A stretch of DNA of 41,816 nucleotides from Acidobacteriota bacterium. GTDB lineage: Bacteria; Acidobacteriota; Blastocatellia; UBA7656. Position numbers and translations under genes: made by a program. This document shows positions 11-16,683 of this stretch, piece by piece; the stretch's first letter is position 1, and each line of letters starts with the position of its first letter. The stretch covers positions 1 to 41,816 of the forward strand of contig JBBPIG010000037.1 of NCBI GenBank assembly GCA_038040445.1. Reading direction: 5' to 3'. The notes beneath the pieces were generated by a model, which ran no database searches, was not told the DNA's origin, and saw only the letters and a program-made list of their open reading frames with translations.

Positions 11-765
11 TCATCGGCGCTCTTCCGAAGTAACGTGTTTAACAGACGATGGATTAGTCAGGCTTAGGGTTCCATCGTCGGAGGCCGAAACGATGCGGCT
101 GCCATCGGGGGAAAAGGCGCACGCCTCCACCTCATATGTGTGGCCCTTGAGGGTGGCCAGTTCGGCTTTCTTAGTATCCCAAAGCTTCAGGGAGAAAAGC
201 CCAGCCGAAACGATGCGGCTGCCATCGGGGGAAAAGGCGCACGCCACCACCTCCTTCGTGTGGCCCGCAAGGCTGGCCACTTCGGTCCCTGTCTGAGCAT
301 CCCAAAGCTTCAGTGTGCTCTCGAAGAGCCCGGAAGCCGAAACGATGCGGCTGCCATCGGGGGAAAAGGTGCAAGCCTTCACCTCACACGTATGGCCCGC
401 AAGGGTCGCCAGTTCGGCTCCTGTCTTAGCATCCCAAAGCTTCAGGGTCGTATCGACGGACGCCGAAACGATGCGGATGCCATCGGGGGAAAAGGCGCAC
501 GCACGCACCGTATCTGTGTGGCCCCTGAGGGTGGCCAGTTCGGCTCCTGTCTTAGCATCCCAAAGCTTCAGGGTATCATCCCCGGAACCCGAAACGATGC
601 TGCCGCCATCGGGGGAAAAGACGCACGCCGTCACCCACCCTGTGTGGCCCTTGAGGGTGCCCAGTTTCGCTCCTGTCTTAGCATCCCAAAGCTTCAGGCT
701 CTTCCGGGAAGCCGAAACGATGCGACTGCCATCGGGGGAAAAGGCGCACGCGTTCACGCCCCCCC
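11..765 (-). pseudogene. Frameshifted WD40 tail of the STAND protein
   Basis: This stretch encodes six further WD40 repeats of the same sort (ACAFSPDGSRIVSAS, LKLWDAKTGAELATL), ending SVKHVTSEERR at a stop at 11-13. It lies in a different frame from the upstream part. The switch falls beside two homopolymers: seven C at 759-765 and eight T at 779-786 (G and A runs on the coding strand). One extra G in the G run would join the frames as KGGGVNACAFSPDG. The rejoined protein would have about nine repeats, close to a seven-to-nine-blade propeller, and about 1170 residues. It may be a sequencing error, phase variation, or real decay of the tail. No ribosome binding site supports separate translation. 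Confidence 0.7.
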
Positions 766-1185
766 TTTCACCACGCTCTTTTTTTTGTGGCCTGCAAGGG
801 TGGCCAGTTCGGCTCCTGTCTTGGCATCCCAAAGCTTCAGGGTATCATCCTTGGACGCCGAAACGATGCGGTTGCCATCGGGGGAAAAGGCGTAAGCCTC
901 CACCGAATCCGTGTGACCCTTGAGGGTGGCCAGTTCGGCTCCCGTCTTAGCATCCCAAAGCTTCAGAGTGTTGTCCGAGGAAGCCGAAACGATGCGGCTG
1001 CCATCGGGGGAAAACGCGCAGGCGTCCACCCAAAACGTATGGCCCGCAAGGGTGGCCAGCTCGGCGCCTGTCTGAGCATCCCAAACCTTCAGGGTGTTGT
1101 CCCAGGAGGCCGAAACCACGCGGCTGCCATCGGGGGAAAAGGCGCACCCCACGACAAAACTTGTATGGCCCTCAAGGGTCATCAA
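60..1185 (-). repeat. Nine near-identical WD40-coding DNA repeats
   Basis: On the plus strand a block like CGATGCGGCTGCCATCGGGG followed by GAAAAGGCGCACGC recurs nine times, near 91, 211, 342, 468, 594, 718, 862, 988 and 1115. Spacing is mostly 120-132 bp and longer where the homopolymer insertion lies. The high nucleotide identity implies recent duplication or ongoing gene conversion within the propeller. Variation concentrates in the few codons after GHT and in the D-A loop codons, which are the exposed positions of a WD40 propeller. Confidence 0.85.
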
Positions 1186-3525
1186 GCAAGCCGAGCGTGA
1201 TTGAGGCTTATTCACATACTGAAACCAGGGGCGAGTTTCAAGTCCCACTTCCATGCGGGCGTGCGCAGCGCGAGCAGGCGCCGTAGAGTCCGGCTCATTC
1301 GCCGCCTGTTGGAAAGTGAGCGCAGCCTTCCTGACCAGCTCGTGACTCTGGGCATGCACAAAGCGGGCAAAGTCATCCAGGCCGGATCGCGATTCAACCG
1401 GAACACCTTCCGCACTCAACGCGGATTCATAGTCTGCTCCCAGGTCGTAGGTCATCGCCGCCTGGCATTTCAACTCGATGAATTGCAGGTCACAAAGTAT
1501 TCCAACCAGCGCCTCCCAGTTTCTTGCCCTCATTTGCTGGTGAGGGAGTTCATCGAGGGCGCGCGCATACGGCTCTCTCCACCGCTCGTTCAGGTAGTCC
1601 GCTATCGCGCTATGTGCAGCATCGCGACTGCTTTTCTCCGATAGATACCGTTTCCCAACTGCTTCCTTGAGCTGACCATGAAAGAAGTCGATCACGCCGG
1701 AACGTTCGAACAGATAGGCGCTCAGGGAACGGTAGAGGCGGCTCCATAACATGTCAGGTAGTTTGGGCGCCTCGGCGGCAGGTTCAATGCGCGGCGCATG
1801 AGCTTTGAGCAGCGTCTGTAACTCTTCCGCGGTCATACCGTGGCGCCCGCAAGCAATGTAAGACATGCAATCACCGACAAGCGCAGGATTGAAGTCGGAT
1901 TCGATGCGTTCCAGCACCTGATCGAACAGAGCGGGCACGTTGTCGGGAAGCCTGTTGATTCTGCCGCCCAGCTCTTCGAACTTGCCGAAGACCCGCAGTT
2001 CTTCCAGTGCTACCAGAATGTACAGCGGATTTCCCTGTTCTACTTTTCGATAAAACTCCCGCTCCACGTCAGGGTTTGGAAACTCGTGACGGATTTCGCG
2101 CAAGTACGTCCCGGCCAACTCTCTTATCTCCGGAGCGGTGAGTCCCGTGACGGTCTCTTCCGGCGGCTTGATCCTTCGCTGCAGCATCGCGTCGCGCGCG
2201 TCGCCTTTCAGAGTGCTGATCACCACGCGCACGTTCTTAGGCAGCACCTGAGGAAGCCAGTGCATGGAGTGCGCGTGATCGGACTGCTCCAACTGGTTTA
2301 CCGCATCGATGATGATCAACAGGTTTCGCTGCTCGCTCGCGCTTGTTAGCAGCTCGGGAAACAGCTTGAGTAATTCTTTGATATCCTCTGGCGCATCTTC
2401 AGTGACGCCGGTGGCGCGGTTTAGATGCGTGCACAACCTGCGCAGCATCTGGCGCAGACTCGTGGAAGAAGGGAATGCCCCGACAAAATGCCCGAGGATC
2501 AGCCAGTCCGGATGCAGGCGCAATGCTTCTTCGGTGAAGCGGGCCATCAAAGCGGACTTGCCGCAGCCGGGTTCTCCGATGATCACCAGCAACGATGGAT
2601 TCTCATCGCCGTTGCAGAATCCGTGCATGCGGTCGAGCAGATCGCGGCGGCCAACGAAGCGACGCGTGCGGTCGGCCATGAACAACTCATGAAGCTCGGC
2701 TTCCTGCCCCAGCCAGTCTCTCTCTTCACTGGGCGCCTGCTCTGCCTCGGCTTCGATCCGCTCCCAAAGCGTGTTCAGAACAAGCTGCCCAAACGCCTCG
2801 ATGCCGTCATATTCGGAATGTGGCAACTCTGCATCTACAATCTCCTTCTTCAGCGCATCGAGCTTGTCCCGATCATCCTGGTTCTGCTCGAAGAAGTCGA
2901 TTGTCTTTGTGCCTGCAATCTGGCGAGAGAGAGCTTCGCTCCGGAAGAAGAAGAAGCTTCGGTCCTTCTGGTAGATCGAATAGCGCTCGAACACAGAGCG
3001 GATGATGTCTGCATCTTCCGGCGCTACATCTTCCTGCAGGAGATACTTGTGTCTATCCGTATCCCAGTTGTAGCAGCGGACCAGGCAGTCCTTCTGCTCG
3101 ATCGAGAGAGTCTGTCCTTCGAGCTGAACTTCGAGTTGATCTGCGAGCTGATCTGCGAGGATCTTGCGCAGGTCCACTACCTGCTTCGGAATGCTCCCGT
3201 GCAATACTCCGTGATAGATTTCTTGTGCGGTGATGGAGTGGCGGTGACCTTCGGGAACAAAACCATAACGATGCCCCAGGATTCCGAGAAAGTAGGGGCG
3301 GCAACTATCGATCTCATCCAGACAAATGTCGAGCGCCTTTCCGTGTTCGGCATCGGCCTCGGTAACACCCCAGCGAAGATCCACGTCGACCAGTTGCACG
3401 TGTTTGGTTCGACATCTTTCTTTCAGTTCGGGAAACACCACGCGAACCAGATGATCGCGCTCAAGGTGCATATCCCGAAAGGTCGAGGAGATGAAAACCC
3501 GTACCGTCTTCCAACCTGCTGCCAT
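754..3525 (-). CDS. DUF4062 / STAND NTPase / WD40 protein, 5' part
   Basis: Probable large intracellular sensor or effector ATPase. Residues 7-90 match the DUF4062 domain (VRVFISSTFRDM start, then a VDLRWGV stretch), a Rossmann-like domain often fused to signalling NTPases. A STAND/NACHT-type NTPase follows, with Walker A GEPGCGKS at 317-324 and Walker B LLIIIDAVNQ at 402-411. A helical region comes next, and WD40 repeats (GHT...AFSPDG...LKLWD) begin near residue 790. This frame ends after about three repeats at GHKKKSVVKGGA, but WD40 coding continues immediately in another frame down to position 11, so the gene appears frameshifted. The start ATG (3523-3525) gives a DUF4062 of normal length. 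It is divergent from the RCK/RyR gene, with about 180 bp between them. The architecture is typical of bacterial conflict or signalling proteins; the ligand and output are unknown. Confidence 0.85.
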   Translation of the reverse strand: MAAGWKTVRVFISSTFRDMHLERDHLVRVVFPELKERCRTKHVQLVDVDLRWGVTEADAEHGKALDICLDEIDSCRPYFLGILGHRYGFVPEGHRHSITAQEIYHGVLHGSIPKQVVDLRKILADQLADQLEVQLEGQTLSIEQKDCLVRCYNWDTDRHKYLLQEDVAPEDADIIRSVFERYSIYQKDRSFFFFRSEALSRQIAGTKTIDFFEQNQDDRDKLDALKKEIVDAELPHSEYDGIEAFGQLVLNTLWERIEAEAEQAPSEERDWLGQEAELHELFMADRTRRFVGRRDLLDRMHGFCNGDENPSLLVIIGEPGCGKSALMARFTEEALRLHPDWLILGHFVGAFPSSTSLRQMLRRLCTHLNRATGVTEDAPEDIKELLKLFPELLTSASEQRNLLIIIDAVNQLEQSDHAHSMHWLPQVLPKNVRVVISTLKGDARDAMLQRRIKPPEETVTGLTAPEIRELAGTYLREIRHEFPNPDVEREFYRKVEQGNPLYILVALEELRVFGKFEELGGRINRLPDNVPALFDQVLERIESDFNPALVGDCMSYIACGRHGMTAEELQTLLKAHAPRIEPAAEAPKLPDMLWSRLYRSLSAYLFERSGVIDFFHGQLKEAVGKRYLSEKSSRDAAHSAIADYLNERWREPYARALDELPHQQMRARNWEALVGILCDLQFIELKCQAAMTYDLGADYESALSAEGVPVESRSGLDDFARFVHAQSHELVRKAALTFQQAANEPDSTAPARAAHARMEVGLETRPWFQYVNKPQSRSACLMTLEGHTSFVVGCAFSPDGSRVVSASWDNTLKVWDAQTGAELATLAGHTFWVDACAFSPDGSRIVSASSDNTLKLWDAKTGAELATLKGHTDSVEAYAFSPDGNRIVSASKDDTLKLWDAKTGAELATLAGHKKKSVVKGGA

Positions 3526-3706
3526 TGAGCAACCTCTGTGATTCGACTCTATCGGTTCCCTGTGATCACGCTGATGTAGTCTACTCCGTGCTCATCGGCT
3601 TAGCATCCGTCGCAGCAAGCAGATAATACTAAGTGGGTTTTGTGCGACCTTCGGGTTGTGAGAGGATAGGCTCCTGCTGTGATTGCCAGGGGCGAGGAGA
3701 ACTCAG

Positions 3707-5503
3707 ATGAAACACGGTGATCCGTTGAAATCCGAACATCGCTCAGACTGGCAATGGCGTATCGGCCTGCTTGTTGCCGCGACCGCTTTTGGGTTTGGCG
3801 CTTTCGGGCTGTGGGAATACGAGAGCGCCGCGGAACACGGCGCCCACCCGGATGCCGTCTCGGTCTTCTACCATACGCTGCAGTTGTTCATTCTTCACGC
3901 GCCTCATCTGGAACACGCGGCGCCCTGGCAACTGCACGTCGGCCGAATGCTCGCCGCGGGGTTGTTCTTTGCAGCCGCCGGCAAGGCTTTCGTTAAAGTG
4001 TTTCGCGATGAACTCTTGCTGGTGCGACTGTGGTTGCCGTGGCGGCGGGGACACGTGGTTGTTTGCGGTCTTGGTGACCTGGGTCTGCGTTTGGCGCTCG
4101 ATGGGCGGAAGCGGGGGCGGTTTGTTGTGGCCATCGAGAAGCATTCTGCTTCAGGCGCGTTGGAGCAAGCGCGCGCGTGCGGGGTGCTGGTAATAGAAGG
4201 GGATGCGCGCGACCCCGCGCAGTTGCGCCGGGCGCGAGTAGAGCGTGCTGAGTTTCTTGTTGCTGCTTGTCCGGACGATCACACCAACGTAGCCGTCGCC
4301 TCGATCGCCGGCCAGTTTGCGCAACGGGAGAAACTAGGAGCCCCGCTTGTTTGCCGCCTCTTGATTCGCGACCCTGAGCTTCGCGCGATCGTCAGCGACG
4401 AAGCCCTCTTCCCTCACACAGGACCGGGCTATCGAGTCAATTTCAGCGATCTCGACCTCGAGGCTACCGCGGCTAGACAGGCGTTGCGCCGGTATCCGCT
4501 CGACTTCGAGTCAATTCAGCAGGACGACCAGACCGCGGTTCATCTGGTGGTGATCGGCTTTGGCCAGATCGGCAAGAGCCTTGCGCTGCAAGCGGCACGC
4601 ATAGGCCACTTTGCCAACGAAGTTGGGGGAGGCCACATGCAGCTTCGGATCACCGTTGCGGACACGGATCCGAGCGGCTGGAATGGCTTCGCGTCACGAT
4701 ACAAGAACCTGCAGAAGGTGTGCGCCGCGGATTTCTTTGTGCATAAGCTCGGCGATGCCGGCTTCATCAGCGCGCTTGCCGCTCTTAGTCCGGCGGCGGG
4801 CTCGCGCCTCGCATTGGTCACCTACGCTATCTGCATCGAAGGCGAAGAAGAAGACAATAATTGTGACCGAACCAACCTGCGGCTGGGGTTGGAACTGTCG
4901 AAGCTATTAGCCGGCCGTCCGGCGAGGGTGTTGATTCATCAGACTTCTTCTGGCGGCTTCGCCTCGTTGTTCCCGAACCAAGGTCGTGGCCGCGGACTGA
5001 GCAATAATATCCACGCATTCGGGATGGAAGAAGGCGTGTACACCTGGGACGTTCTGTTGCACGAAAGTGAAGATGACCTGGCGAAAGCCGTGCATGAAAA
5101 CTATCAGGCCACGAGCGGCGAGGCAGGGGTGCCGCGTTGGGGGGAACTCCCGGAGCACTTTAAGGAATCCAACCGGCAGGCCGCGGACCATATTCCGATC
5201 AAGCTCCGGGCGCTTGGTTACGTCGACCGTCCCGTTGATGAACGCACCGAGCGAATCGGGCGCTTCGATGAAAAGCAGATGGAGCTGCTCGCTAAGATGG
5301 AACACGCTCGCTGGTGCGCCGAACGCTTTCTCGCTGGTTGGGAATACGGAAAGCCGACCGCGCGCGAACTCAAGATCAACGAAAGCCTCGTGCTCTGGAA
5401 TGAGCTCAAAGAGAAGGACAGGAAGAAGGATTGGAACCAAATCAACGCGATTCCGGAGATTCTCCGCCTGGTGGGGCGGGGCATCTACCGAAAGGAAGAT
5501 TGA
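3707..5503 (+). CDS. Membrane-anchored double-RCK (TrkA-N like) protein with C-terminal RyR domain
   Basis: 598 aa. ATG 3707 is preceded by GAGGAGA six bases upstream, better than the TTG at 3683. Two hydrophobic segments (about residues 19-35 and 78-95) flank a loop, followed by a Rossmann/RCK domain with GLGDLG and an acidic strand end (VVAIEK). A second Rossmann domain begins with VVIGFGQIGKS. The C-terminal ~100 residues match the RyR repeat domain: NRQAADHI, then MEHARWCAERFLAGWEYG, then a charged ELKEKDRKKDW segment. The RCK domains suggest nucleotide-dependent gating or sensing, and bacterial RyR domains are proposed ligand-binding modules. I see no potassium-channel selectivity filter (TVGYG), so it is probably not a classical channel. 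The divergent arrangement with the DUF4062/STAND gene suggests a shared regulatory region and possibly a joint sensing role. Confidence 0.82.
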   Translation: MKHGDPLKSEHRSDWQWRIGLLVAATAFGFGAFGLWEYESAAEHGAHPDAVSVFYHTLQLFILHAPHLEHAAPWQLHVGRMLAAGLFFAAAGKAFVKVFRDELLLVRLWLPWRRGHVVVCGLGDLGLRLALDGRKRGRFVVAIEKHSASGALEQARACGVLVIEGDARDPAQLRRARVERAEFLVAACPDDHTNVAVASIAGQFAQREKLGAPLVCRLLIRDPELRAIVSDEALFPHTGPGYRVNFSDLDLEATAARQALRRYPLDFESIQQDDQTAVHLVVIGFGQIGKSLALQAARIGHFANEVGGGHMQLRITVADTDPSGWNGFASRYKNLQKVCAADFFVHKLGDAGFISALAALSPAAGSRLALVTYAICIEGEEEDNNCDRTNLRLGLELSKLLAGRPARVLIHQTSSGGFASLFPNQGRGRGLSNNIHAFGMEEGVYTWDVLLHESEDDLAKAVHENYQATSGEAGVPRWGELPEHFKESNRQAADHIPIKLRALGYVDRPVDERTERIGRFDEKQMELLAKMEHARWCAERFLAGWEYGKPTARELKINESLVLWNELKEKDRKKDWNQINAIPEILRLVGRGIYRKED

Positions 5504-6755: not shown

Positions 6756-7295
6756 ATGCAGGACAATATCTTTGAAGCCTTTCTAAAGCGCCAATACCAG
6801 GACGGCATCGCGCTGGCTGCATCGAGCGATCTTATCGAGATCTATCCGATGGCCGGCGATCCGCCGGACCGCTACATCGCCGAGTTTCGATGCAAGGGGC
6901 TGATGCGGTCCGAGGGTGGTGACGTGGTTGAAGCCGATCGTTTCGAGGTCGGCATCTGGTTTCCGTCCGACTACCTTCGGCGCGCCGAGCCGTTTCAAGT
7001 TCTGACCTGGCTGGGGCCGTTTGACGTGTTTCACCCGAACATCAGCGACAAGGCGCCCTTTATCTGCGTCGGCAAGCTGGCGCCGAACACGGCTCTTGTC
7101 GACATTTTGTATCAGTGCTTCGAGATCATCACCTACAACAAGGTGACGATGAGGGAGGACGACGCACTCAACAGAGAAGCCTGCGTGTGGGCGCGTGAGA
7201 ATCAGCACAGGTTTCCGATCGATCGGCGCCCGCTCAAGCGGCGCGCGCTAGACCTGCAGGTCGAATATGTTGAGCCTGCAGGTCGAACAAGTTGA
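6756..7295 (+). CDS. E2-like (UBC-fold) ubiquitin-conjugating protein
   Basis: 179 aa, ATG 6756 behind AAGGAAGG. The central part follows the E2 core: an HPN tripeptide (VFHPNIS, H93-N95), then the presumed thioester cysteine C104 in PFICVGKL 11 residues later (10 in eukaryotic E2s). LAPNTALVDILYQCFEII follows, matching the eukaryotic segment after the catalytic Cys (WSPALTISKVLL). Upstream strands (YIAEFRCKG, RFEVGIWFPSDY) fit the UBC antiparallel sheet. Keeping both HPN and Cys implies an active conjugating enzyme carrying a Ubl thioester. It is the first gene of the nine-gene plus-strand run that includes a Ubl, a JAMM protease and Pup genes. No E1 is nearby. The last ~10 residues arise from a 22-bp duplication. 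Family assignment is confident; the substrate is not known. Confidence 0.85.
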   Translation: MQDNIFEAFLKRQYQDGIALAASSDLIEIYPMAGDPPDRYIAEFRCKGLMRSEGGDVVEADRFEVGIWFPSDYLRRAEPFQVLTWLGPFDVFHPNISDKAPFICVGKLAPNTALVDILYQCFEIITYNKVTMREDDALNREACVWARENQHRFPIDRRPLKRRALDLQVEYVEPAGRTS

Positions 7296-7296
7296 G
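7253..7296 (+). repeat. 22-bp tandem duplication at the 3' end of the E2-like gene
   Basis: Two adjacent 22-bp copies (7253-7274 and 7275-7296), each starting CCTGCAGGTCGAA and ending GTTGAG, differ at two bases. Because 22 is not a multiple of three, the duplication changes the E2 C-terminus. With one copy the protein would end LQVEQVEKVG at the TGA inside GGGATGAAC. The second copy supplies the present stop codon (7293-7295) and a possible TTG start for the next gene. Confidence 0.8.
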
Positions 7297-7312
7297 AAGG
7301 TGGGATGAACGG

Positions 7313-8269
7313 GTGGCTTATCCGGCAAACAGACGAGACGGCAGAGTCCTTGAGTCGCTGAAGAAGTGCGCGGCCTCCGCCGAACAGAGCGGCGGCGGCC
7401 GCTGGAGTTTCGCGCTGGGGAACGGCAAGTCGTTCGCCGTTACCGCGCGAGCCGTCGACGAGTGGCTGCTTCTTGATCTGCCGCTGACCGATAGAATCGC
7501 GCGCGGCGAAATGTGGGACCTGCTTCGGATGAATGCGACCCTCGAAGGGCCGAGCAAGTTCGTGCTGATGCCGGACAACCGCTCCGTTCACCTCCGCGCG
7601 GACATACCCCTGTTCGAGGAAGAGTATGGCGAGACCGAGTGCGAGGGCGAGACGGACGACGACCCGGCGCGACGGGTCGAGACAGCGTGCGCGGGACTAA
7701 AAGCGGCGCTTCGGAGCTTTCGGGGCGAGGCGACGAACAAACGCGTGGTGAAATCAGGTCAGAGTGAGGGCGTGGATGAGAGCCGCGCTCAGGAGCTTCA
7801 GCGTTTGTGTGGCGAAGCCGGCTGGCCGTTCATCGAGCGCGCGGCGGGAAAGCTCGCGATTGATCTCGACGCTCGAGGAGGCTTCTATCAAGCGCTGGTT
7901 GAACAGCGTAGTTCCGGTGCTCACGTGTCGGTTGAGGTCGCGGTTTGCGACGCTCTTGCTGCGACGAGCCGTCAGGCGATCAGCACCTTGCTGCTCAAGA
8001 CCGGAGGAGTTGTGAGGATGGCTCGCCCGTCGGTCGACGAACAGGAGAGCCGTGTCGCGGCGCGGTTCGAAGTTGCGTTTGTCGCCCCGCCGACCGCGAT
8101 TGAATTGGCGCACGCGCTTTCGTCCCTGTCAGTCGCGTGTTCACTTTGCGGACGCGAGACGCAGGCTCTGAGGGATGAAACTATCGCCAACGACTATCTG
8201 GCAATCGCAGGTATTGCCGCGGGCCCTGCGGAAGTCAGAGAAGAAGCAATGCACTCCGCGGCTGATTGA
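7313..8269 (+). CDS. Unrecognised two-domain protein between E2 and Ubl
   Basis: 318 aa from GTG 7313, with AGAAGGTGGG upstream; TTG 7292, overlapping the E2 stop, is the alternative. I do not recognise it by sequence. Two similar halves can be seen. Residues ~20-105 read as strands and helices (RWSFALGNGKSFAVTARAV, WLLLDLPL, WDLLRMN, KFVLMPDNRSVHLRADIPL). Residues ~155-300 repeat the pattern (KLAIDLDARGGFYQALVEQ, HVSVEVAV, ARFEVAFV). An acidic linker (EEEYGETECEGETDDD) lies between. The alternation resembles the alpha/beta fold of YbjN or type III secretion chaperones, duplicated in tandem; this is inference. Tight packing between E2 and Ubl genes suggests a scaffold or adaptor of the Ubl pathway. 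No catalytic motif is visible. Confidence 0.7.
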   Translation: MAYPANRRDGRVLESLKKCAASAEQSGGGRWSFALGNGKSFAVTARAVDEWLLLDLPLTDRIARGEMWDLLRMNATLEGPSKFVLMPDNRSVHLRADIPLFEEEYGETECEGETDDDPARRVETACAGLKAALRSFRGEATNKRVVKSGQSEGVDESRAQELQRLCGEAGWPFIERAAGKLAIDLDARGGFYQALVEQRSSGAHVSVEVAVCDALAATSRQAISTLLLKTGGVVRMARPSVDEQESRVAARFEVAFVAPPTAIELAHALSSLSVACSLCGRETQALRDETIANDYLAIAGIAAGPAEVREEAMHSAAD

Positions 8270-8288
8270 GAAAGGGAGGTCAAAAACA

Positions 8289-8573
8289 ATGGGAACGCCA
8301 CAACAGTTGGGCATTGGGCTTCAGGTAAGCGACGTGTCAGGCCAGAAGCTGCACAATGTCAGCAACGTGCCGCCCGATGCAACGGTCGGAGAGTTGATAC
8401 AGGGAATGCTGTCGCAGATGAATCTGCCGCAGAACGATGTAAGCGGGCGCCCGCTTACGTATCACGCGCTACTCGAGCGCGAGGGGCGCCACTTGCACGC
8501 ATCCGAACGCGTCGGCGATGCAGTTCAAAATGGCGACAAGGTCGTTCTGCAGCCGAATATCGATGCCGGCTAG
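8289..8573 (+). CDS. Ubiquitin-like beta-grasp protein (Ubl)
   Basis: 94 aa. ATG 8289 follows GGGAGGT with eight-base spacing; open codons upstream lack such a site. The pattern fits a beta-grasp: a first hairpin (GIGLQVSDVSGQKLHNV), a helix introduced by a threonine (PPDATVGELIQGMLSQMN), and later strands (LTYHALLEREGRHL, then GDKVVLQP). The layout resembles YukD/EsaB-type and other bacterial Ubls. It ends NIDAG, so the C-terminal residue is a glycine without processing, although a canonical GG is missing. Next to an E2-like gene and a JAMM gene it is the obvious modifier for conjugation. Only two lysines (K20, K83) are present, which limits possible chain formation. Known: bacterial Ubl-E2-JAMM neighbourhoods exist. 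Inferred: covalent attachment in this organism. Confidence 0.8.
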   Translation: MGTPQQLGIGLQVSDVSGQKLHNVSNVPPDATVGELIQGMLSQMNLPQNDVSGRPLTYHALLEREGRHLHASERVGDAVQNGDKVVLQPNIDAG

Positions 8574-8585
8574 GAAAAGAAGGAG

Positions 8586-8757
8586 AATTGAAAAATGAAA
8601 ATTGAAAATGGAAAAATGCAAATTGCACTCGAGCATCGGGTCCCACATCGATCTGGGATCCTCGATCCTCGATCTGCGATCTGCGATCTGAGATTAGCCA
8701 TCAGCAATTTGCAATTTCAAATTTGCAATTTGCAATTTTCAATATCCTGTTTCCACG
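8586..8757 (+). repeat. AT-rich imperfect palindrome A1 in the operon gap
   Basis: The gap between the Ubl and JAMM genes is a self-complementary element. The left arm is rich in GAAAATTGAAAAT and ends in CAAATTGC (8586-8629). The right arm is rich in GCAATTTGCAATTT and ends in CAATTTTCAAT (8705-8744). Between them lies a run of short GATC-containing repeats (CGATCTGCGATCTG). A block AAATTGCACTCGAGCATCGG recurs, with one change, in the next intergenic gap. It could fold into a long hairpin in the mRNA. It is noncoding and contrasts strongly in base composition with the flanking genes. Confidence 0.75.
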
Positions 8758-8772
8758 CTAAGAGGGGTCGTC

Positions 8773-9813
8773 ATGCCGACTAATGGATATCGCTACGTCG
8801 TAGAGCTGTTTCGCGAGGATGACACGCCGCTCGGGCAGGCTTCCGTAAAAGTGGACTGGGGGCCTGCCGAGGAGTGGGCCAAGTTCGAAGCGCTGCGCCG
8901 AGGCGAAACCGGCTCGAATGAAACAGGCCGCGTCATCTCGATTCAGCCGCTCTGGCTGCGCGAAGCCGGAGAACCGTATCTCCAAGGGTTCCGCGTGGCC
9001 GTCATCGGAGGCGGCCGCGAAGTAGCCACAGATTTCTCGAGCAGCTACTTCAAAGGGATCGCGGCTCAGGCGTCGAGTCATTTCATTGAGAATGGACGAC
9101 TCGAAACCGGCGCGCGCTTCCGATACCTGGCCGCTGCGTTTCGGGAGCAGAGTGAGCAGCCGAACGGCTCACGATTTCAGTTCACGACCGAAGAGGTCAC
9201 GCGGCCGATCGCGATTAAGGATTCGTCGCTTGCCGAAGCCGTGGCCGGGTCTGTGCCCGGCGGTACGATGTGCGCGGGCGATGTGCCGGTCTTCGTGCCT
9301 CGATGTGTACTGGACGAAGCGGTCACTCTGAGCCGCGAAGCCGGGGCTAAGGAGACGGGTGGAATCCTGATCGGACATCTCCATAGGGATGCCGCGGTTC
9401 CGGATGTCTTCGTTGAAGTGACTGCTCAGATTCACGCGCGGCACACCGAAGCCAATTTGACCAGGCTGACGTTCACCGCCCAGACGTGGACCGAAGTTCA
9501 AGGTGCGATCGACCTTCGCCGAAAGGACGAGATCATGCTCGGCTGGTGGCACTCGCATCCGGTGCGCGAGTGGTGCAAGGACTGCTCGGCCGAGCGGCAA
9601 CAGGTCTGCAAGATGGCCGGAGACTTTTTCAGCGCGCACGATCACGCGCTGCATCGCACGGTGTTCCCGAGCGCTTACAGCATCGCGCTGGTGGCGAACG
9701 ACCTTCCGAATGGCGAGGTGACTTTCTCCGCCTTCGGATGGAGAGAAGGCTTGCTGGAGTCTCGCGGGTTTTATGTTGCTGGTACTCAACAACAGAGTGC
9801 CGTCACTTCGTAG
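8773..9813 (+). CDS. JAMM/MPN+ metalloprotease (Ubl isopeptidase candidate)
   Basis: 346 aa, ATG 8773 after AAGAGGGG. The C-terminal half carries the JAMM zinc set: the conserved Glu in AKETGGILIGHL (E194), H260 and H262 in GWWHSHP, then S287 and D290 in FFSAHD. This is the signature of deubiquitinase-like peptidases that cut after a Ubl C-terminus. Unusually, the spacing from HSHP to SxxD is 23 residues instead of about 7, and the insert holds three cysteines (C268, C271, C279 within WCKDCSAERQQVC), perhaps a metal or disulfide site. Residues 1-140 form an extra N-terminal domain (YRYVVELFRED...), not recognised. The likely role is removing the Ubl from targets or maturing it; since the Ubl already ends in Gly, deconjugation seems more likely. 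It lies between the Ubl and the AAA+ ATPase genes. Confidence 0.87.
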   Translation: MPTNGYRYVVELFREDDTPLGQASVKVDWGPAEEWAKFEALRRGETGSNETGRVISIQPLWLREAGEPYLQGFRVAVIGGGREVATDFSSSYFKGIAAQASSHFIENGRLETGARFRYLAAAFREQSEQPNGSRFQFTTEEVTRPIAIKDSSLAEAVAGSVPGGTMCAGDVPVFVPRCVLDEAVTLSREAGAKETGGILIGHLHRDAAVPDVFVEVTAQIHARHTEANLTRLTFTAQTWTEVQGAIDLRRKDEIMLGWWHSHPVREWCKDCSAERQQVCKMAGDFFSAHDHALHRTVFPSAYSIALVANDLPNGEVTFSAFGWREGLLESRGFYVAGTQQQSAVTS

Positions 9814-9833
9814 AGAGCGAGGTCACGGAGAAG

Positions 9834-9960
9834 AATTGAAAATTGAAAATTGAAAATTGCAAAATGCAAATTTGAAAATGCAAATTGCAATCGAGCATCG
9901 GGTTCAACTTCGATCTGCGATCTACCGTCGGCAATTTTCAATTTTCAATTTTCAATTGTC
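9834..9960 (+). repeat. AT-rich imperfect palindrome A2 in the operon gap
   Basis: Second copy of the element family seen in the Ubl-JAMM gap. The left arm consists of repeated GAAAATT units (9834-9887); the right arm is ATTTTCAATTTTCAATTTTC (about 9933-9956). Both copies share CAAATTGCAxTCGAGCATCG and the CGATCTGCGATCT stretch. The arms can pair over about 25 bases. It sits between the JAMM stop and the ATPase start and has no long U run that would make it a simple terminator. Confidence 0.75.
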
Positions 9961-10017
9961 TAGTTCACGAAGATGCCTTAACCGAAGGATGCCGAACAAG
10001 TTCAAGTGGAGACGAAA

Positions 10018-11706
10018 ATGATGCGGTCGCGACAAGATGCTGACATAGAAACTTTGCTCAAGCAGCTTACCGCCGTTGGTGATGAAGCTCCTTCGATCGA
10101 GGAGAAGGTGCAACTCGCCCATTTGATTCGCGGGCAGTCGAGAGAAGCCGGACAGCAGGTCGATCATTTCCTGATAGACCAGGTGACGCGACTGCGGTCG
10201 GGCCTGGATGAAGCGCGAGTCACTCACGAGAAGCTTCAGTCGATGCTCGATGAACTGACGTCGCCGCCCTGGCATCCGGCGATCTTTCTCGGTCTCGCTC
10301 CCATGGAAAGCCGCGAGGCCGCAATGGTGATGTACGGCAACTCGCGCCGGGTTGTGACGATTTCTGATGATATAGACCACTATTCGCTGGCAGTAGGCGA
10401 CGAGGTGCTGCTCGGCAACGAACTAAACGTCGTCGTCGGCAAGTCGCCCTACAACTTTTTTCAGAGTGGCGAGACTGCCAGGTTCGACCGCTACATGCCC
10501 GATCGACGGTTGGTGATCAAGCATCGAGACGACGAAGTCATCGTCGATGGCGCCGACTCGCTGGATCGCAACGAGCTGAAACCCGGCGATCTGGTTCGAT
10601 GGGACCGGAGCGCGTGGATGGCGTTTGAACGCGTCGAGCGCTCGCAGGGAACCGAGCTCTTTCTCGAGGAGACTCCGCAAGAGAGCTTCGAGAACATCGG
10701 AGGGCTCGAACGCCAGATCGAGGGGCTTCAACGGTCGATTCAATTGCACCTCTACCATGCCGACACGGCGCAAAAGTATCAGCTTCGTCAGAAGGGCTCG
10801 GTGCTTCTGGTAGGACCGCCGGGTACCGGCAAGACGATGATGGCGCGCGCACTTGCGAACTGGCTCGGAACGATTTCGAAGTCGGGGCGCGCTCGCTTCA
10901 TGAACATCAAGCCCGCGAGCCTTCACAGCATGTGGTACGCGCAGAGCGAGGCAAACTACCGCGAGGCGTTCCGCGTCGCGCGCGAGGCGGGAGACCAGGA
11001 ACCGGAGGTGCCGGTAGTGATGTTCTTCGACGAGGTAGACTCGTTGGGCGCATCGCGTGGGCAGTCGTTAATGCGGGTTGACGATCGCGTGTTGACTGCG
11101 TTCATGACCGAGCTTGACGGGCTGGATTCGCGCGGAAACGTACTGGTGGTCGCGGCGACCAATCGCCGCGACGCGATCGACCCCGCGCTGTTGCGGCCGG
11201 GCAGGCTCGGCGATCTGGTGCTCGAAGTTCCGAGGCCGAATATGAAGGCCGCGCGGGAGATCTTACGCAAGCATCTACAATCCGGCATACCGTACGCGCT
11301 CGAGGGCTTTGCCGCAAACGCCGCGCGCCGCGAGATCATCGAGTCGGCTGTGTCGAGGATCTACTCGCCGAACGGCGACAGCGAGCTGCTGGCGATCACG
11401 TTTCGCGACGGCAAGCGCCGCACGGTACGGGCGAAGGAGCTGATCAGCGGCGCGAGCATTGCCAAGATTGCGCTGGCGGCAAAGGAGCGCGCATGCGTGG
11501 AGGAAATTGAAACCGGGCAGTCCGGTGTGGGACTGAAGCACGTGTTGTCGGCGATCGCTGACGAGCTGGAATGCCTTGCGGGGTCGCTGACGTCGGCGAA
11601 CTGCCGCGATTACCTCACCGACTTGCCCCAGGACGTTGATGCGGTGCGAGTCGAACCGATTCGGCGCAAAGTGCCGCGACCGCACGCGTACTTGCACGTT
11701 GCGTGA
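10018..11706 (+). CDS. ARC/Mpa-type proteasomal AAA+ ATPase
   Basis: 562 aa; ATG 10018 (or 10021) lies 6-9 bases after GGAG, preferred to GTG 10006. It looks like the hexameric unfoldase of the Pup system. An N-terminal helical stretch (about 1-85) is suited to the coiled coil that recognises Pup. OB-like strands follow (SRRVVTISDDIDHYSLAVGD, VIVDGADSLDRNELKPGD). A single AAA domain has Walker A GPPGTGKT (266-273), Walker B VVMFFDEVDS (D338/E339), sensor 1 AATNRRD and RPGRLGDL. In Mpa the C-terminus ends in a Gln-Tyr-Leu motif that docks into the 20S core. Here it ends AYLHVA, so the docking tail is altered or absent. No PrcA or PrcB gene occurs in the window. It is followed by dop/pafA-like and pup genes, which supports the assignment. 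Confidence 0.87.
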   Translation: MMRSRQDADIETLLKQLTAVGDEAPSIEEKVQLAHLIRGQSREAGQQVDHFLIDQVTRLRSGLDEARVTHEKLQSMLDELTSPPWHPAIFLGLAPMESREAAMVMYGNSRRVVTISDDIDHYSLAVGDEVLLGNELNVVVGKSPYNFFQSGETARFDRYMPDRRLVIKHRDDEVIVDGADSLDRNELKPGDLVRWDRSAWMAFERVERSQGTELFLEETPQESFENIGGLERQIEGLQRSIQLHLYHADTAQKYQLRQKGSVLLVGPPGTGKTMMARALANWLGTISKSGRARFMNIKPASLHSMWYAQSEANYREAFRVAREAGDQEPEVPVVMFFDEVDSLGASRGQSLMRVDDRVLTAFMTELDGLDSRGNVLVVAATNRRDAIDPALLRPGRLGDLVLEVPRPNMKAAREILRKHLQSGIPYALEGFAANAARREIIESAVSRIYSPNGDSELLAITFRDGKRRTVRAKELISGASIAKIALAAKERACVEEIETGQSGVGLKHVLSAIADELECLAGSLTSANCRDYLTDLPQDVDAVRVEPIRRKVPRPHAYLHVA

Positions 11707-11723
11707 GGGAGGGCGGGAGAAGG

Positions 11724-11850
11724 ATTTCAGATTTCAAATCTCAGAGTGGTGCTTTGAGATCCCGGACGTTTTGAGAAACGGTGATATCAGAAATAACAAT
11801 TTGGGACTTGAATGATCGAGATTTGGAATCTGAAATCTGAAATTTGAAAT
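11724..11850 (+). repeat. AT-rich palindrome A3 upstream of the Dop-like gene
   Basis: Inverted repeat with arms ATTTCAGATTTCAAATCTC (11724-11742) and its complement at 11818-11836 with one mismatch. The right side continues with CTGAAATCTGAAATTTGAAA. It lies in the gap between the ATPase and Dop-like genes and resembles A1 and A2 in composition and placement, but not in exact sequence. It could form an mRNA hairpin of about 19 pairs. Confidence 0.75.
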
Positions 11851-11902
11851 TCGTCCTTCGAATCGACGCAAAGTCCGGCCGCCACGCTAGACAGGGATTG
11901 AA

Positions 11903-13666
11903 ATGAGAGAGAGCGGAACCAAAAATCAACCGCGTAACCGAAAGCCGGAGCGCAAGTGCCTGCCCAAGCTGTGCGGTGCGGATATTGAGCTCGGTAATTT
12001 TCTCCTTGGCCTAGAGACCAAACGCGGGACAGGTTACGAGGCGTCGCGCCTGTTGTTGCGGGAGATCGACGGCCTGCCGCGAGTCCAGAAGTCCCGTGGC
12101 GAGGCGTGCGATTGCGCTGCGTGCAGGCGCGCTCGAAGCTCCTCGGACGCCGGCGACGGGGCGAGTACTCGAGGCTCGAACGGCCAGGTCGCGGTGAATC
12201 CGCAGGATTGGGGCCGCAAGTATCTCGCTTCAAACGGCGGCTGCGTTTACATCGACCTCGATCATCTCGAGCTATGCTTGCCCGAAGTGCTGAGTGCTTA
12301 CGACCACGTCGCGTGTTGGCACGCGATGTTAAGAATCGCCCGCGCGGCGCTCGAGGCGGCTAACGAAAAGCTACCCGCGCGAAACAAGATTCAGGTGCTG
12401 GTCAACAACAGCGACGGGAAAGGCAACTCATATGGCAGCCACCTCGACTTTCTGATAACTCGTCAGGCGTGGGAGAACATCTTCCGGCGAAAGATTCACT
12501 ACATGCTGTACCTGGCGGCGTTTCAAGCGTCGAGCATCGTCTACACGGGGCAGGGAAAAGCCGGAAGCGAGAATAGTGCGCCGGACGTTTCGTTTCAGTT
12601 GTCCCAACGCGCCGACTTCTTCGAGCAGTTGGTGGGATCGCAGACGACTCATAATCGCCCTATCGTGAACAGCCGCGACGAGCCCCTTTGCGGAAACCGC
12701 CGCGGCCGGGACGATGATGACGCTTCGCAAGAGATGGCCCGGCTGCACGTGATCTTTTTCGACAACACGTTGTGCCACACCGCGAGCCTGTTGAAAGTCG
12801 GAGTGATGCAAATCGTGTTGTCGATGATTGAGGCCGAGCAGGTGAATCCCGAATTGCTGCTCGACGATCCGGTGGAAGCGGTTGTGCGATGGAGTCACGA
12901 TCCGACGCTTCAAGCCCGGGCGATGATGACGTCAGGCGAGGAACTGACCGCAGTCGAGCTTCAGTTGCGATTTCTGGAAGACGCGAAAGGTTTCGTCGAG
13001 CACGGAGGGTGCGACGAAATAGTCCCTAGGGCAAACGAGATTCTTGCCTTGTGGGAGGACACCTTGCTCAAGCTTCAGGCGGGCGATTTCGAACCGCTTG
13101 CGCCGAGACTCGATTGGGTGTTGAAGCTTTCGATCTTGCAGCAGGTGCTTGATGAGCGGCCGGACCTGACCTGGGATTCGCCTGAGATCAAACATCTCGA
13201 TCTTCTCTACTCCAGCCTGGACCCGTCGGAGGGTTTGTATTGGGCTTATGAAGAAGGCGGATTCGTAGAGCGCGTGGTGGGTAACGAGCAGATCGAACGC
13301 TTCACGGTCAGTCCGCCTGAAGACACGCGCGCGTGGACTCGGGCGATGCTTCTGCGATGGGCCGGGCCGGACGGCGTAGATGATGTGGATTGGGATGCGA
13401 TTGGTTTCAAGACGGGGTATGAGCGCTACAGGACCATCTATCGCAAGCTCGAGCTGGCCAATCCGCTCGCGTTTAGTAAGGAAGCTTGCGAGCGCGCCTT
13501 CGAAAATGCGACTACGCTTGACGAGTTGCTTGATGCGCTGGGAGCGGCAGAGAGCAATATGCAAGGCGAATCGAAACGTGAGGGAGAGGCGAGGATTGAA
13601 TTGGCTCCAATCGGTTTCAGTGCGCCGCGCAAAGACAAGAGGGAAAAAGGGAGGACGTTGAGATGA
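11903..13666 (+). CDS. PafA/Dop-family Pup enzyme, Dop-like paralogue
   Basis: 587 aa, ATG 11903 with a weak AGGGA upstream. Member of the Pup ligase/deamidase family (glutamine-synthetase-like fold). Visible family motifs are CGADIELGNF with E29 (PafA GIETEFG), GGCVYIDLDHLELCLPE with D119 at the catalytic Asp position, NNSDGKGNSYGSH, QLSQRADFFE, RPIVNSRDEPL, and RLHVIFFDNT followed by LLKVG. I lean to Dop (deamidase/depupylase) for three reasons: NNSDGKGxSYGSH is the Dop form; an insertion at ~58-108 sits where Dop carries its loop; and the gene directly precedes pup, as dop does in actinobacteria. The insertion contains a cysteine cluster (CDCAAC at 69-74). A Dop would convert the pup GGQ end to GGE. 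The stop overlaps the pup start (ATGA). Family is secure, subtype less so. Confidence 0.85.
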   Translation: MRESGTKNQPRNRKPERKCLPKLCGADIELGNFLLGLETKRGTGYEASRLLLREIDGLPRVQKSRGEACDCAACRRARSSSDAGDGASTRGSNGQVAVNPQDWGRKYLASNGGCVYIDLDHLELCLPEVLSAYDHVACWHAMLRIARAALEAANEKLPARNKIQVLVNNSDGKGNSYGSHLDFLITRQAWENIFRRKIHYMLYLAAFQASSIVYTGQGKAGSENSAPDVSFQLSQRADFFEQLVGSQTTHNRPIVNSRDEPLCGNRRGRDDDDASQEMARLHVIFFDNTLCHTASLLKVGVMQIVLSMIEAEQVNPELLLDDPVEAVVRWSHDPTLQARAMMTSGEELTAVELQLRFLEDAKGFVEHGGCDEIVPRANEILALWEDTLLKLQAGDFEPLAPRLDWVLKLSILQQVLDERPDLTWDSPEIKHLDLLYSSLDPSEGLYWAYEEGGFVERVVGNEQIERFTVSPPEDTRAWTRAMLLRWAGPDGVDDVDWDAIGFKTGYERYRTIYRKLELANPLAFSKEACERAFENATTLDELLDALGAAESNMQGESKREGEARIELAPIGFSAPRKDKREKGRTLR

Positions 13667-13866
13667 CAATGCGTGAAAGGCTCGAAGACGATCGGCCACC
13701 GGATGAGCGAGACCCAGCCGGTGATGCTTCGGGAGACGCCAACTTGCGGCGAATGCGGCTTGCGGGTGAGAGCCTGCTTGCCGCGGGCGCGGATGCCATT
13801 CAAAGAGCTTTATCGGGCAACAGCGAATCATTCTTGAAAGCCACCCGTCAACAGGGAGGTCAATAG
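13663..13866 (+). CDS. pup: Pup, prokaryotic ubiquitin-like protein
   Basis: 67 aa; ATG 13663 overlaps the previous stop as ATGA and lies eight bases after AGGGAGG. It is small, hydrophilic and probably disordered in its first half (LEDDRPPDERDPAGDASGD), with a helical second half. The C-terminus aligns column for column with actinobacterial Pup: NSESFLKATRQQGGQ against NAEDFVRAYVQKGGQ, preserving N, E, F, A, Q and the final GGQ. A terminal Gln means it must be deamidated to Glu before ligation, which explains a Dop next to it. An upstream LL...D spacing also fits Pup. UBact, a related modifier, ends in a different context, so Pup is the better name. It lies between two PafA/Dop-family genes. 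Confidence 0.88.
   Translation: MTMRERLEDDRPPDERDPAGDASGDANLRRMRLAGESLLAAGADAIQRALSGNSESFLKATRQQGGQ
13853..13860 (+). promoter_or_regulatory. Shine-Dalgarno for the PafA-like gene inside the pup GGQ codons
   Basis: AGGGAGGT at 13853-13860 is spaced eight bases from ATG 13869. The same bases are the Gly-Gly codons (GGA GGT) of the Pup C-terminus, followed by CAA TAG. The ligase start signal is therefore embedded in the functional tail of Pup, which ties the two genes translationally. Confidence 0.75.
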
Positions 13867-13868
13867 CC

Positions 13869-15512
13869 ATGGCCGAAAGGCTAATGGGGGTAGAAACTGA
13901 ATACGCGCTCAGCGCCATGACGGAGTGGCACGGCGGCTTCGACCAAACCGAGCTCTTGAAGAAATTGTTCGGAGTGGCCCGGAGAAGGCTTGTGCACCTG
14001 CCCGACGTGCACGGCGGCATGTACCTGGGAAACGGCTCGCGATTCTATATCGACTACGGCAATCACCCTGAGTTGACCACGCCCGAGTGTACAAACCCGT
14101 GGGACGTAGTTCGGTACATTCTCGCCGGCGAGCGAGTGCTCGCGAACCTGACAGAAGAGCTCGAGCGCGAACTGCGAGAGTGCAAGCTGATGCTGTTCAA
14201 GTCGAATGTCGACTACGGCGGCACCTATGTGACCTGGGGCTGCCATGAGTCGTACCTGCATCGCGCGTCGCCCAGCGCGATGTCGGACGAAATCATCCCC
14301 CACCTGGTCACGCGGATCATCTACACGGGAGCGGGCGGGTTCGATTCCGTGTCCAGGGGATTTGAGTTCACTCTTTCGCCACGGGTGCCTCACCTGGCAA
14401 ACGTGGTGTCGAACAATTCGACCTCTGATCGTGGGATTTTTCACACAAAGGATGAGTCGCTGAGCAAGCCTGGCTATCACCGGCTTCACATCATCTGCGG
14501 CGAAAGCCTGTGCTCGGAGACCGGCATGTGGTTGAAGGCGGCGACGACCGCTTTGGTGGTCGCGATGGTAGAAGCCGGGCTGCACCCCGGTCACGGGGTT
14601 GGTCTACGCTCGCCCCTGCAAGCTATGCAAACCATCGCGATGGACCAGTCGTGCGCTAAGAGTGTGGAAACGACCACAGGGCGGCGTCTTAGCGCAATCG
14701 AGATCCAGTATCACTACCTGAGCATGGCCGAGAAACACGCCGGTGACCCGTGCATGCCGGCGTGGGCGGAAGAAGTCTGTTGCAAGTGGCGGGCGATGTT
14801 GAATAGCTTGCTCGACGCCCCTGAATCGGTGGCGGCGAATCTGGATTGGGCAATCAAACGCTCGGTGTACGAGGGCTATGCAAACAGCAAAGGTGTTGCG
14901 TGGAGCTCGCTTCCTCAGTGGACGCGCGTGCTCCAGGAGGTTCGTCAGGTGGTCGACGTCGGTGGTGAATATGACCAGCCGCTGAGCGCCGAGCACATTC
15001 TGAACGAGTGGAGCACGGCGAAGCCGGCAATGAAACGACTGACGGAGTTCACTGATCGGAACGGTCTTAGCTGGGATGCGATCGAATCGGTGCTCAAGCT
15101 CAGAGAGGAGCTCTTCGAGATCGACACACGGTTTGGGCAAATCGGCGGGCAAGGTATTTTTGCGAGTCTCGATAGAGCGGGTGTGCTGAAACATCATGTT
15201 CCGGGAGTGGACAACATAGAATACGCTGCTACTCATCCGCCCGCGGCCGGGCGCGCGCGTGTTCGAGGAGAGGTCGTCCGCCGGCTGGCCGGTCAGAATG
15301 GATACTACAAGTGCGACTGGCAAGGCGTGGTCGATCTGGTAGCGAAACGGGTGCTCGATCTATCGGAGCCGTTTGAAAGCGAAGAGCGGTGGCTCAACCT
15401 GGACGAAGCTCAAGCGAGCAGCCTTAGTCCGTTTATCGAGTTGCTCAGCCGGGAGGGGTTGAGAGGGGACACCACCGTCTGGCGTTCAGCGTCGAATTGC
15501 CTTGCGCGCTAA
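13869..15512 (+). CDS. PafA/Dop-family Pup enzyme, PafA-like paralogue
   Basis: 547 aa, ATG 13869. Second member of the Pup ligase/deamidase family. It opens MGVETEY like PafA (MGIETEF), lacks the long loop of the other paralogue, and has NGSRFYIDYGNHPE with the catalytic Asp. It continues with LFKSNVDYGG, WGCHESYL, PHLVTR, HTKDES and YHRLHII. It ends with ATHPPAAGRARVRGE, then CDWQGVVDL and EPFESEERWLN, resembling PafA ends (DWxxLKL, DPFxSVDER). These features favour the ligase that joins the Pup C-terminal Glu to substrate lysines, although HPELTTPECTNP and AGERVL look Dop-like. Its start signal lies within the pup gene. In actinobacteria prcB and prcA usually follow pup; here this gene does. 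The two paralogues are clearly diverged, not a recent duplication. Confidence 0.85.
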   Translation: MAERLMGVETEYALSAMTEWHGGFDQTELLKKLFGVARRRLVHLPDVHGGMYLGNGSRFYIDYGNHPELTTPECTNPWDVVRYILAGERVLANLTEELERELRECKLMLFKSNVDYGGTYVTWGCHESYLHRASPSAMSDEIIPHLVTRIIYTGAGGFDSVSRGFEFTLSPRVPHLANVVSNNSTSDRGIFHTKDESLSKPGYHRLHIICGESLCSETGMWLKAATTALVVAMVEAGLHPGHGVGLRSPLQAMQTIAMDQSCAKSVETTTGRRLSAIEIQYHYLSMAEKHAGDPCMPAWAEEVCCKWRAMLNSLLDAPESVAANLDWAIKRSVYEGYANSKGVAWSSLPQWTRVLQEVRQVVDVGGEYDQPLSAEHILNEWSTAKPAMKRLTEFTDRNGLSWDAIESVLKLREELFEIDTRFGQIGGQGIFASLDRAGVLKHHVPGVDNIEYAATHPPAAGRARVRGEVVRRLAGQNGYYKCDWQGVVDLVAKRVLDLSEPFESEERWLNLDEAQASSLSPFIELLSREGLRGDTTVWRSASNCLAR

Positions 15513-15525
15513 GGAGAAACGACCG

Positions 15526-16683
15526 GTGTTCGAGTTGGAACAAGAGCTGGCCAAGAGACTGAAGCATCTGCGGGTTCATATCGACGTGGCGGATAACGAC
15601 ACGGTCTTGCTGCGGAATGTTCCGGCGAACGATCAATTCTTCAGCAAGCCGCGGACGAATCTGCTCATCAAACGGCCGCGCAAAGGAATGCCGTACCTGA
15701 TCTGTGTCGATGAAGACCTGGACTACACCGGGTCGGATTCCGCTATGGCGCGCGCGTTCGTTGGCGGTCACACGCAGCAGGGTTGGCGGGTGCTATTCGT
15801 CGGGCACGACGTTCGAGCGAACATTCAGCAGGTGATCGAGGAGGCGCTCGACGCCGTAGGCTTCGACGGTCGCGAGCCCGAGTTGAAGCCGCTTGCGCCA
15901 GGCATGGAGCCCGAGACTCGGGGAAAGCTTCTTGCGAGCTTTGCCACGGAGATTCGCGTTCGCGCGGCGGACGCTATCGACGAGCCGACGATCGGACGCG
16001 AAGAGAAGGTCGAAGAGGTCGTCTCCGGTCTGCTCCAATGGCAAGTGCGTTTGCCGGTGATCGCCGGAGAGTCCGGTGTCGGCAAGACAAACCTGGTACG
16101 CGCAGTCGCGCGAAAGCTGAAGCAGTGCCGGCCGCAGTTCAAGGTTATGTCGGTGGAGCTCAGCGCGGTGATGGCCGGAACTCTGTTTGATTCCGAGCGC
16201 GAGAGCGTGCTGATCGCGCTTCTCAAAGACGTGGAGGAACAACCGCAGACGGTCGTCGTGCTGGAGCATCTGGAGATGGCTTTGATGGGGGTGCCTCGCG
16301 GGCACCTTCTGCTTGGGCAAGCGCTGGACCTGGGCGCGCGGATTATTGGGACTACGCTGCCGGTGCACCTTTCAAGTTTCGAAATCGCGCCTTTGATGAG
16401 GCGGCTACTAGTAACCGAGCTTGTCGAAATGAGCTTGAGCGAGACGGGTGAGGTGTTGCTCGCGCTGCGAGAGCGGATCGCCGAGCACCATCACGTTGCG
16501 ATCGAAGAATCTCTGCTGAACGCGGTCATCGAGACCGCGCTTCCTTTGACCGGACATTTTCCTGCTAAGGCGATTTCGCTGCTTGATGCGGCAGCGGCGA
16601 GAGCCGTGCTCGCGGGTGAGAGCGAATTGAGCCTATTTGACGTGTACACGGCAGCCACGAAGGTCGGCGGAGATTATGCCTAA
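15526..16683 (+). CDS. Clp-like AAA protein with degenerate Walker B
   Basis: 385 aa from GTG 15526, nine bases after AAGGAG (15511-15516), which overlaps the previous stop; this beats TTG 15502. Residues ~155-385 resemble the first AAA module of ClpA/ClpB: PTIGREEKVEEVV, Walker A GESGVGKT (181-188), a LGARIIGTT sensor-1-like stretch, and the Clp lid signature FPAKAISLLDAAAARA. Where ClpB has hhhhDE, this protein has VVVLEHLE (243-250). Asp is replaced by Glu and the catalytic Glu by His, so hydrolysis may be weak or absent. Residues 1-150 form a domain I do not recognise (LLRNVPANDQFFSKPRTNLL, MPYLICVDEDLDY). It is the last gene of the Ubl/Pup run and may act as an adaptor or regulatory ATP-binding protein for the pathway. 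Confidence 0.78.
   Translation: MFELEQELAKRLKHLRVHIDVADNDTVLLRNVPANDQFFSKPRTNLLIKRPRKGMPYLICVDEDLDYTGSDSAMARAFVGGHTQQGWRVLFVGHDVRANIQQVIEEALDAVGFDGREPELKPLAPGMEPETRGKLLASFATEIRVRAADAIDEPTIGREEKVEEVVSGLLQWQVRLPVIAGESGVGKTNLVRAVARKLKQCRPQFKVMSVELSAVMAGTLFDSERESVLIALLKDVEEQPQTVVVLEHLEMALMGVPRGHLLLGQALDLGARIIGTTLPVHLSSFEIAPLMRRLLVTELVEMSLSETGEVLLALRERIAEHHHVAIEESLLNAVIETALPLTGHFPAKAISLLDAAAARAVLAGESELSLFDVYTAATKVGGDYA

Follow-up and report, generated by a model that had tools for sequence, protein, structure and literature searches.

A ubiquitin-type cascade with its probable E1 gene on a separate contig, clustered with ARC and pupylation genes in an Acidobacteriota genome

The DNA analysed here (the window) comprises contig C37 in full, at a length of 41,816 bases. 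It belongs to a 6.75 Mb genome with a listed completeness of 100% and contamination of 0.7%. A run of genes on the plus strand, 6756-16683, encodes an E2-like protein, a protein termed X, a ubiquitin-like protein (Ubl), a JAB protein, an ARC-type ATPase, two Pup-ligase family proteins with Pup between them, and a ClpA/B-like protein (Table 1). Four adjacent gene pairs overlap or are separated by at most 2 bases, and three spacers of 192-199 bases directly follow the Ubl, JAB and ARC genes. The spacers downstream of Ubl and JAB contain related runs of short repeats (8583-8755 and 9831-9965) of TTGCAAT and CGATCTG types, which form long imperfect palindromes. A shorter palindrome is located in the spacer after ARC (11723-11850).

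Table 1. Genes of the plus-strand run, with positions in the window
Product	Position	Strand	Features
E2 (UBC-like)	6756..7295	+	179 aa, HPN 93-95, Cys104
Protein X	7292..8269	+	325 aa, no known family; same position in relatives
Ubl	8289..8573	+	94 aa, beta-grasp, end ...NIDAG
JAB/JAMM protein	8773..9813	+	346 aa; E, HSH, S..D kept; N-terminal part of ~150 aa
ARC/Mpa-type AAA ATPase	10006..11706	+	566 aa, C-terminal HVA
Pup-ligase family protein 1 (PafA-like)	11903..13666	+	Pfam Pup_ligase
Pup	13663..13866	+	67 aa, end GGQ; assigned by its end, its place and homologues in relatives
Pup-ligase family protein 2 (Dop or PafA)	13869..15512	+	Pfam Pup_ligase
ClpA/B-like AAA protein	15502..16683	+	393 aa; also in G143 and UBA7656 clusters

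The Ubl reading frame extends from the ATG at 8289 to the TAG at 8573, is preceded by AGGGAGGT 5' of the ATG and ends with ...QPNIDAG. Its predicted model (pLDDT 88) displays a clear ubiquitin fold. Foldseek search returned 126 PDB matches at E <= 0.001 with Caldiarchaeum ubiquitin at the top (1.6e-5), and VIA-align many Ubl domains at Z 10-11, with no single family clearly ahead. Pfam alone does not reveal the protein, its sole match being at 0.18; weak sequence matches include MoaD and SAMP1. Both the reading frame and the beta-grasp fold bear out the first-pass annotation, which described a Ubl terminating in NIDAG with C-terminal glycine.

The E2 assignment is based on several features. 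His93-Pro94-Asn95 and Cys104 are kept in the alignment of all six close sequences (the window's included), which agrees with the earlier statement that the neighbouring E2 contains a cysteine. Pfam UQ_con matches at 0.015, under the cut-off, and profile matches in PDB are UBC enzymes (best E 0.006). The first matches of the predicted model are UBC enzymes as well (best E 0.005); the model is poor (pLDDT 59) and too weak to be taken for more than a hint. Window-type E2 and Ubl have one match each in the genome. The JAB protein is above the Pfam cut-off, and the JAMM residues E, HxH and S..D are kept in four of four complete JAB rows.

To find related loci, 297 Acidobacteriota genomes were searched with E2. 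Eleven matches were retrieved: the source genome, G143 and G110 (E < 1e-60), and eight distant ones. Four loci (L031-L034) came from scanning a species-level genome collection, a method that picks up close relatives. These are Chloracidobacterium sp. UBA7656 (by coordinates the same place as G301:C146), a locus identical to the G110 contig, Acidobacterium sp. palsa_291 and a Chromatiales MAG whose locus is cut off inside E1 at one end and inside JAB at the other. In G143, UBA7656 and palsa_291, a single contig bears the order E1-E2-X-Ubl-JAB-ARC and goes on to Pup-ligase 1, Pup and Pup-ligase 2. The ubiquitin-type cascade, ARC and complete pupylation genes are therefore found in one cluster in all three relatives with enough contig. 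At the palsa_291 locus, the gene of Pup-ligase family protein 2 is on the other strand and no ClpA/B-like gene was found. Because G110 carries its ubiquitin-type genes on contig C3 and its Pup genes on contig C69, and each contig breaks off inside JAB, a single operon is only presumed in this genome.

Six close Ubls could be compared at their C-termini: AG in the window, AGQ in UBA7656, AGA in G143, AGGC in G110, AGLC in palsa_291 and AG in the Chromatiales MAG. The terminal glycine is thus the last residue in two of them and is followed by one or two residues in four, so that a bare C-terminal glycine is not general among close Ubls. Those with residues beyond AG would need trimming. The glutamine end of the UBA7656 Ubl (L031:11430-11705) resembles that of Pup, and Dop/PafA may act on this AGQ Ubl.

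As the first-pass annotation had noted, the run lacks a ThiF/E1-like protein, and this holds for the whole window: tblastn with the genome's four ThiF proteins detected neither E1 nor an E1 remnant in the 41.8 kb (none better than E 1.5). ThiF genes are present on other contigs. The genome search for ThiF/MoeB-like proteins that had been proposed was carried out with PF00899 and identified four ThiF-fold proteins. According to Pfam, two of them, both on contig C3, are a ThiS-ThiF-rhodanese fusion and a MoeB/ThiF-like protein, and the one on C36 is a JAB-ThiF fusion. The fourth is a 368-aa ThiF protein encoded on the minus strand of contig C2 (13038-14141), with the gene of a RING-like protein (14146-14772) just upstream. 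Blastn at 1e-3 detected no DNA common to the window and the C2 locus; the corresponding tblastx listing was left unused because its scores were pooled.

Several lines of evidence point to the C2 protein as the dedicated E1. The gene immediately preceding E2 encodes a homologue of this protein in each of the five further genomes where a close E2 was found (G143, G110, UBA7656, which has the same coordinates as G301, palsa_291 and the Chromatiales MAG). In a phylogenetic tree (the second one constructed), the C2 protein, these five linked E1s and that of G339 make up one clade with support 100/99, and both C3 proteins fall outside, on the side of another type of E2-linked E1. Three long rows, including the C36 protein, had been removed from this tree, which supports the clade and not the order inside it. 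In the first tree, with all rows kept, the group of five rows that held the own E1 was less well supported (80/88). When own proteins are compared with the UBA7656 cluster, the closest one and of the same family, identities amount to 59% for E1, 71% for E2, 81% for Ubl and 59% for JAB. Identities and tree fit one inherited system whose genes would have become separated, not an E1 from elsewhere.

Distribution of the genes was examined as well. Among eight genomes of the order to which the source belongs, Ubl and C2-type E1 are present in the same two, the own one and G301; in the latter they are 1.7 kb apart. In the phylum (396 genomes), C2-type E1 occurs at E 1e-45 or better in four (own, G110, G143 and G339), and a Ubl profile in which one distant row was included finds seven. 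G339 has a RING-like protein together with E1 (40%); no E2, Ubl or PafA was detected in this genome, whose completeness is 74% and whose scaffold is interrupted by a gap at the end of E1.

Since the C2 protein is orthologous to E1s that adjoin E2 in relatives, a split of the operon accounts for the arrangement, and neither a borrowed ThiF/MoeB protein nor E1-free charging is needed. Of the options offered by the first-pass annotation, an unlinked E1 is hence the supported one, recruitment from the thiamine or molybdopterin pathway is dispensable with the ThiS-ThiF-rhodanese and MoeB-like proteins outside the E1 clade, and charging of E2 in another way has found no support. Its surprise at the absent E1 was justified for this genome and does not hold for relatives. 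What looks like a missing E1 comes down to gene order in this single genome.

The C2-type E1 retains the glycine loop, the N, K and D residues and CxxC. Cys171 is kept in seven of seven window-type E1s and five of five more distant E2-linked E1s, and in neither of the two own C3 proteins; this alignment did not include L024, L026 or the C36 protein. Arginines usual in the ATP site of ThiF/MoeB proteins are those of the NLQRQ motif and of the RYxRQ segment. The former is absent from all six window-type E1 rows that cover the motif, and the N-terminal RYxRQ segment is missing in six of six, also within the open frame upstream of each E1. The full set of usual ATP-site residues is thus not present in C2-type E1s. 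Because this family lacks two usual arginines, adenylation is not certain, and we consider this the chief reason for caution as to predicted activity.

The RING-like protein (209 aa) matches Prok-RING_1 at 8.3e-5 with 22.9 bits, below the cut-off of 29.1. Seven cysteines and one histidine are invariant in six of six intact copies, and the gene precedes E1 in four of four relatives with enough sequence, as on C2. An FHA domain was suspected by eye only; it was dismissed, as Pfam and PDB profile search gave none. Another RING-like copy is found on the other side of E1 (C2:12446-13005, or L018:8347-8906, minus strand). Its matches fall in two frames, and it appears to be decayed or frameshifted. 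Genes with WD40-like repeats, recognised by eye, occur near both halves of the system (754-3525 on the minus strand of the window; L018:4274-8048), as do genes of a RyR-domain protein (3683-5503 in the window; L018:12484-15297, by similarity).

More distant loci extend the picture. An E1 match is present in the fetched stretch in seven of eight genomes with distant E2, and none was found in that of G026. L027 (genome G234) has the same order E1-E2-X-Ubl-JAB-ARC, where X is assigned by place only and ARC is 25% identical, and its Ubl ends in glycine. No Pup or Pup-ligase match was found on this 8.8-kb contig; the link between the Ubl cascade and an ARC-like ATPase is therefore independent of Pup. 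In other Acidobacteriota (L022, L023, L050), a second type of E2-linked E1 with Ubl was observed, in which an NLSR arginine is kept. Ubls of this type end with ITAGAR in L022 and ITAG in the genome of L023, and the stretches fetched for the three loci gave no Pup-ligase match.

Regarding the Pup half, the two Pup-ligase family proteins of the window match Pup_ligase at 1.4e-94 and 7.4e-88. Pup itself has no match in Pfam or NCBIfam. Five of six Pups (the window's, GGQ, included) end with GG(E/Q) and one, that of L033, with SGE. Pup-ligase genes occur in seven genomes of the 297-genome phylum sample, and all three sample genomes with close E2 are among these (chance probability 8e-6, uncorrected for relatedness and assuming that the E2 and Pup-ligase draws of 297 genomes are the same set).

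No 20S core was found in any of the four genomes with ubiquitin-type and Pup genes that were searched (own, G143, G110, G301). In each, the clear proteasome-fold match is HslV, located beside HslU; the own one, on contig C27, was rejected as a 20S candidate on this ground. One further match on own C30 (3.7e-5), part of a 383-aa frame, is too weak for assignment. Proteasome-fold genes other than HslV lie next to a Pup ligase in G006 (C11) and G057 (C58; genome 72% complete), and E2 was found in neither genome. G003 carries HslV alone and lacks E2; G223 (85% complete, with a Pup contig beginning 259 bases ahead of ARC) yielded neither a proteasome-fold match nor E2. The seven Pup-ligase genomes thus comprise three with E2 and without 20S, two with 20S and without E2, and two with neither. 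As G003 and G223 show neither, a rule of either ubiquitin module or 20S is not established. ARCs of six clusters of the window kind lack the Tyr-Leu end, including that of G223, a short contig with only the ARC and Pup section of the cluster; the ARC of G006 ends with RYL.

Taken together, it is likely that the Ubl is part of a complete ubiquitin-type cascade with genes in two places of this genome. In all probability this cascade is both genuine and complete; its activity is predicted. The C2 E1 would adenylate the C-terminal glycine of Ubl and take Ubl on Cys171, from which it would be passed to Cys104 of E2, and the RING-like protein may aid transfer to targets. JAB would remove Ubl and, in relatives, also trim the one or two extra residues. 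Ubl-tagged proteins, like pupylated ones, may be handled by ARC of the same cluster. With no 20S core detected, the probable role of ARC is to unfold or take apart its targets, or to feed another protease.

Alternatively, the Ubl might stay unconjugated, with E1, E2 and Ubl forming a sulphur carrier or a non-covalent adaptor of ARC. MoaD and SAMP1 among the weak matches would suit such a role, as would the two arginines missing from E1, and there is a precedent in YukD, a bacterial Ubl reported as not conjugated (PMC1779556). Nevertheless, the Ubl is accompanied by an E2 with HPN and cysteine, a JAB that has its metal-site residues and a RING-like protein, and a scan of ten window proteins revealed no domain for sulphur transfer, rhodanese included. 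We consider this explanation unlikely. An even smaller probability is given to charging of E2 by a housekeeping ThiF/MoeB protein, either the ThiS-ThiF-rhodanese fusion or the MoeB-like protein of C3, while the C2 E1 serves something else. Both candidates have strong ThiF domains and, unlike the C2 E1, retain the NLQR arginine. They are, however, devoid of the extra cysteine of E2-linked E1s and placed outside the window-type clade; moreover, a dedicated E1 orthologue exists, and no second E2 or Ubl of the same type that the C2 E1 could serve was found in the genome. Some cross-talk of the own ThiF/MoeB-type proteins with the cascade may occur.

It is scarcely credible that the JAB-ThiF fusion of C36 (L017:9715-11112) is the E1. 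It combines a ThiF domain with a weakly matching JAB part, an arrangement familiar from known ubiquitin-like operons. On the other hand, the protein has a very long branch in the E1 tree, tblastn revealed no E2 or Ubl beside it, and used as query it gave no match at 1e-3 in five loci with an E2-linked window-type E1. A defence system was considered too and set aside, as PADLOC returned only weak matches to E1-E2, BilD and JAB besides AAA matches to ARC. The latter (best 7.7e-26, TRIP13) say little on the role of ARC.

The complete ubiquitin-type cascade favoured here resembles several known systems. The prokaryotic RING/E1/E2/JAB systems described by Burroughs et al. (2011) reportedly contain RING-like proteins beside E1, E2, JAB and Ubl, a combination shared with the present system, in which the weak RING match is to Prok-RING_1. 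Small Ubls with C-terminal glycine, JAB with an N-terminal domain and separate E1 and E2 are features of type 6d (Iyer et al. 2006) and BilABCD operons, as described in PMC1779556 and PMC11354881, and are found here likewise. The window E2 differs in its classical HPN, the histidine of which is absent from type 6d, and the RING-like protein, ARC and Pup genes are additions with respect to both. PADLOC (2023 models) gave no BilA or BilB match, and BilD only at 4.3e-4. The same set of parts also occurs in the cascade of Caldiarchaeum subterraneum (ubiquitin, E1, E2, small RING and Rpn11), where a JAMM protein trims the ubiquitin pro-form (PMC5654768). That organism is an archaeon and its ubiquitin has a di-glycine end, in contrast to the Ala-Gly end of the window Ubl and the Pup genes of its cluster.

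The other half of the cluster is similar to the Pup-proteasome system in its Pup ending with GGQ, two Pup-ligase family proteins and ARC-type ATPase. Unlike in that system, none of the four genomes with both gene sets yielded a 20S subunit, and ARC has no Tyr-Leu end. For C. glutamicum, which lacks 20S, ARC has been proposed to unfold pupylated ferritin (PMC8223512); a coreless ARC thus has precedent. Literature search found no description of ubiquitin-type and Pup genes in one operon, which is not proof of absence.

The question of the missing E1 is answered with one gene. The part worth following is the joint ubiquitin-type and Pup cluster without 20S core: gene order ties a ubiquitin-type cascade to a proteasomal-type ATPase and pupylation in genomes apparently devoid of 20S. 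Tentatively, and with the balance slightly against it, we suggest that one cluster combines two chemically unrelated tagging cascades, RING-E1-E2-Ubl-JAB and PafA-Pup-Dop, with one shared proteasomal-type ATPase and no 20S. If this is true, one unfoldase would read two tags, and JAB would be the counterpart of Rpn11, which in eukaryotes sits next to the Rpt ring. With the gene order described here, reading of a ubiquitin-like tag by ARC and the role of an ARC motor without core become directly testable.
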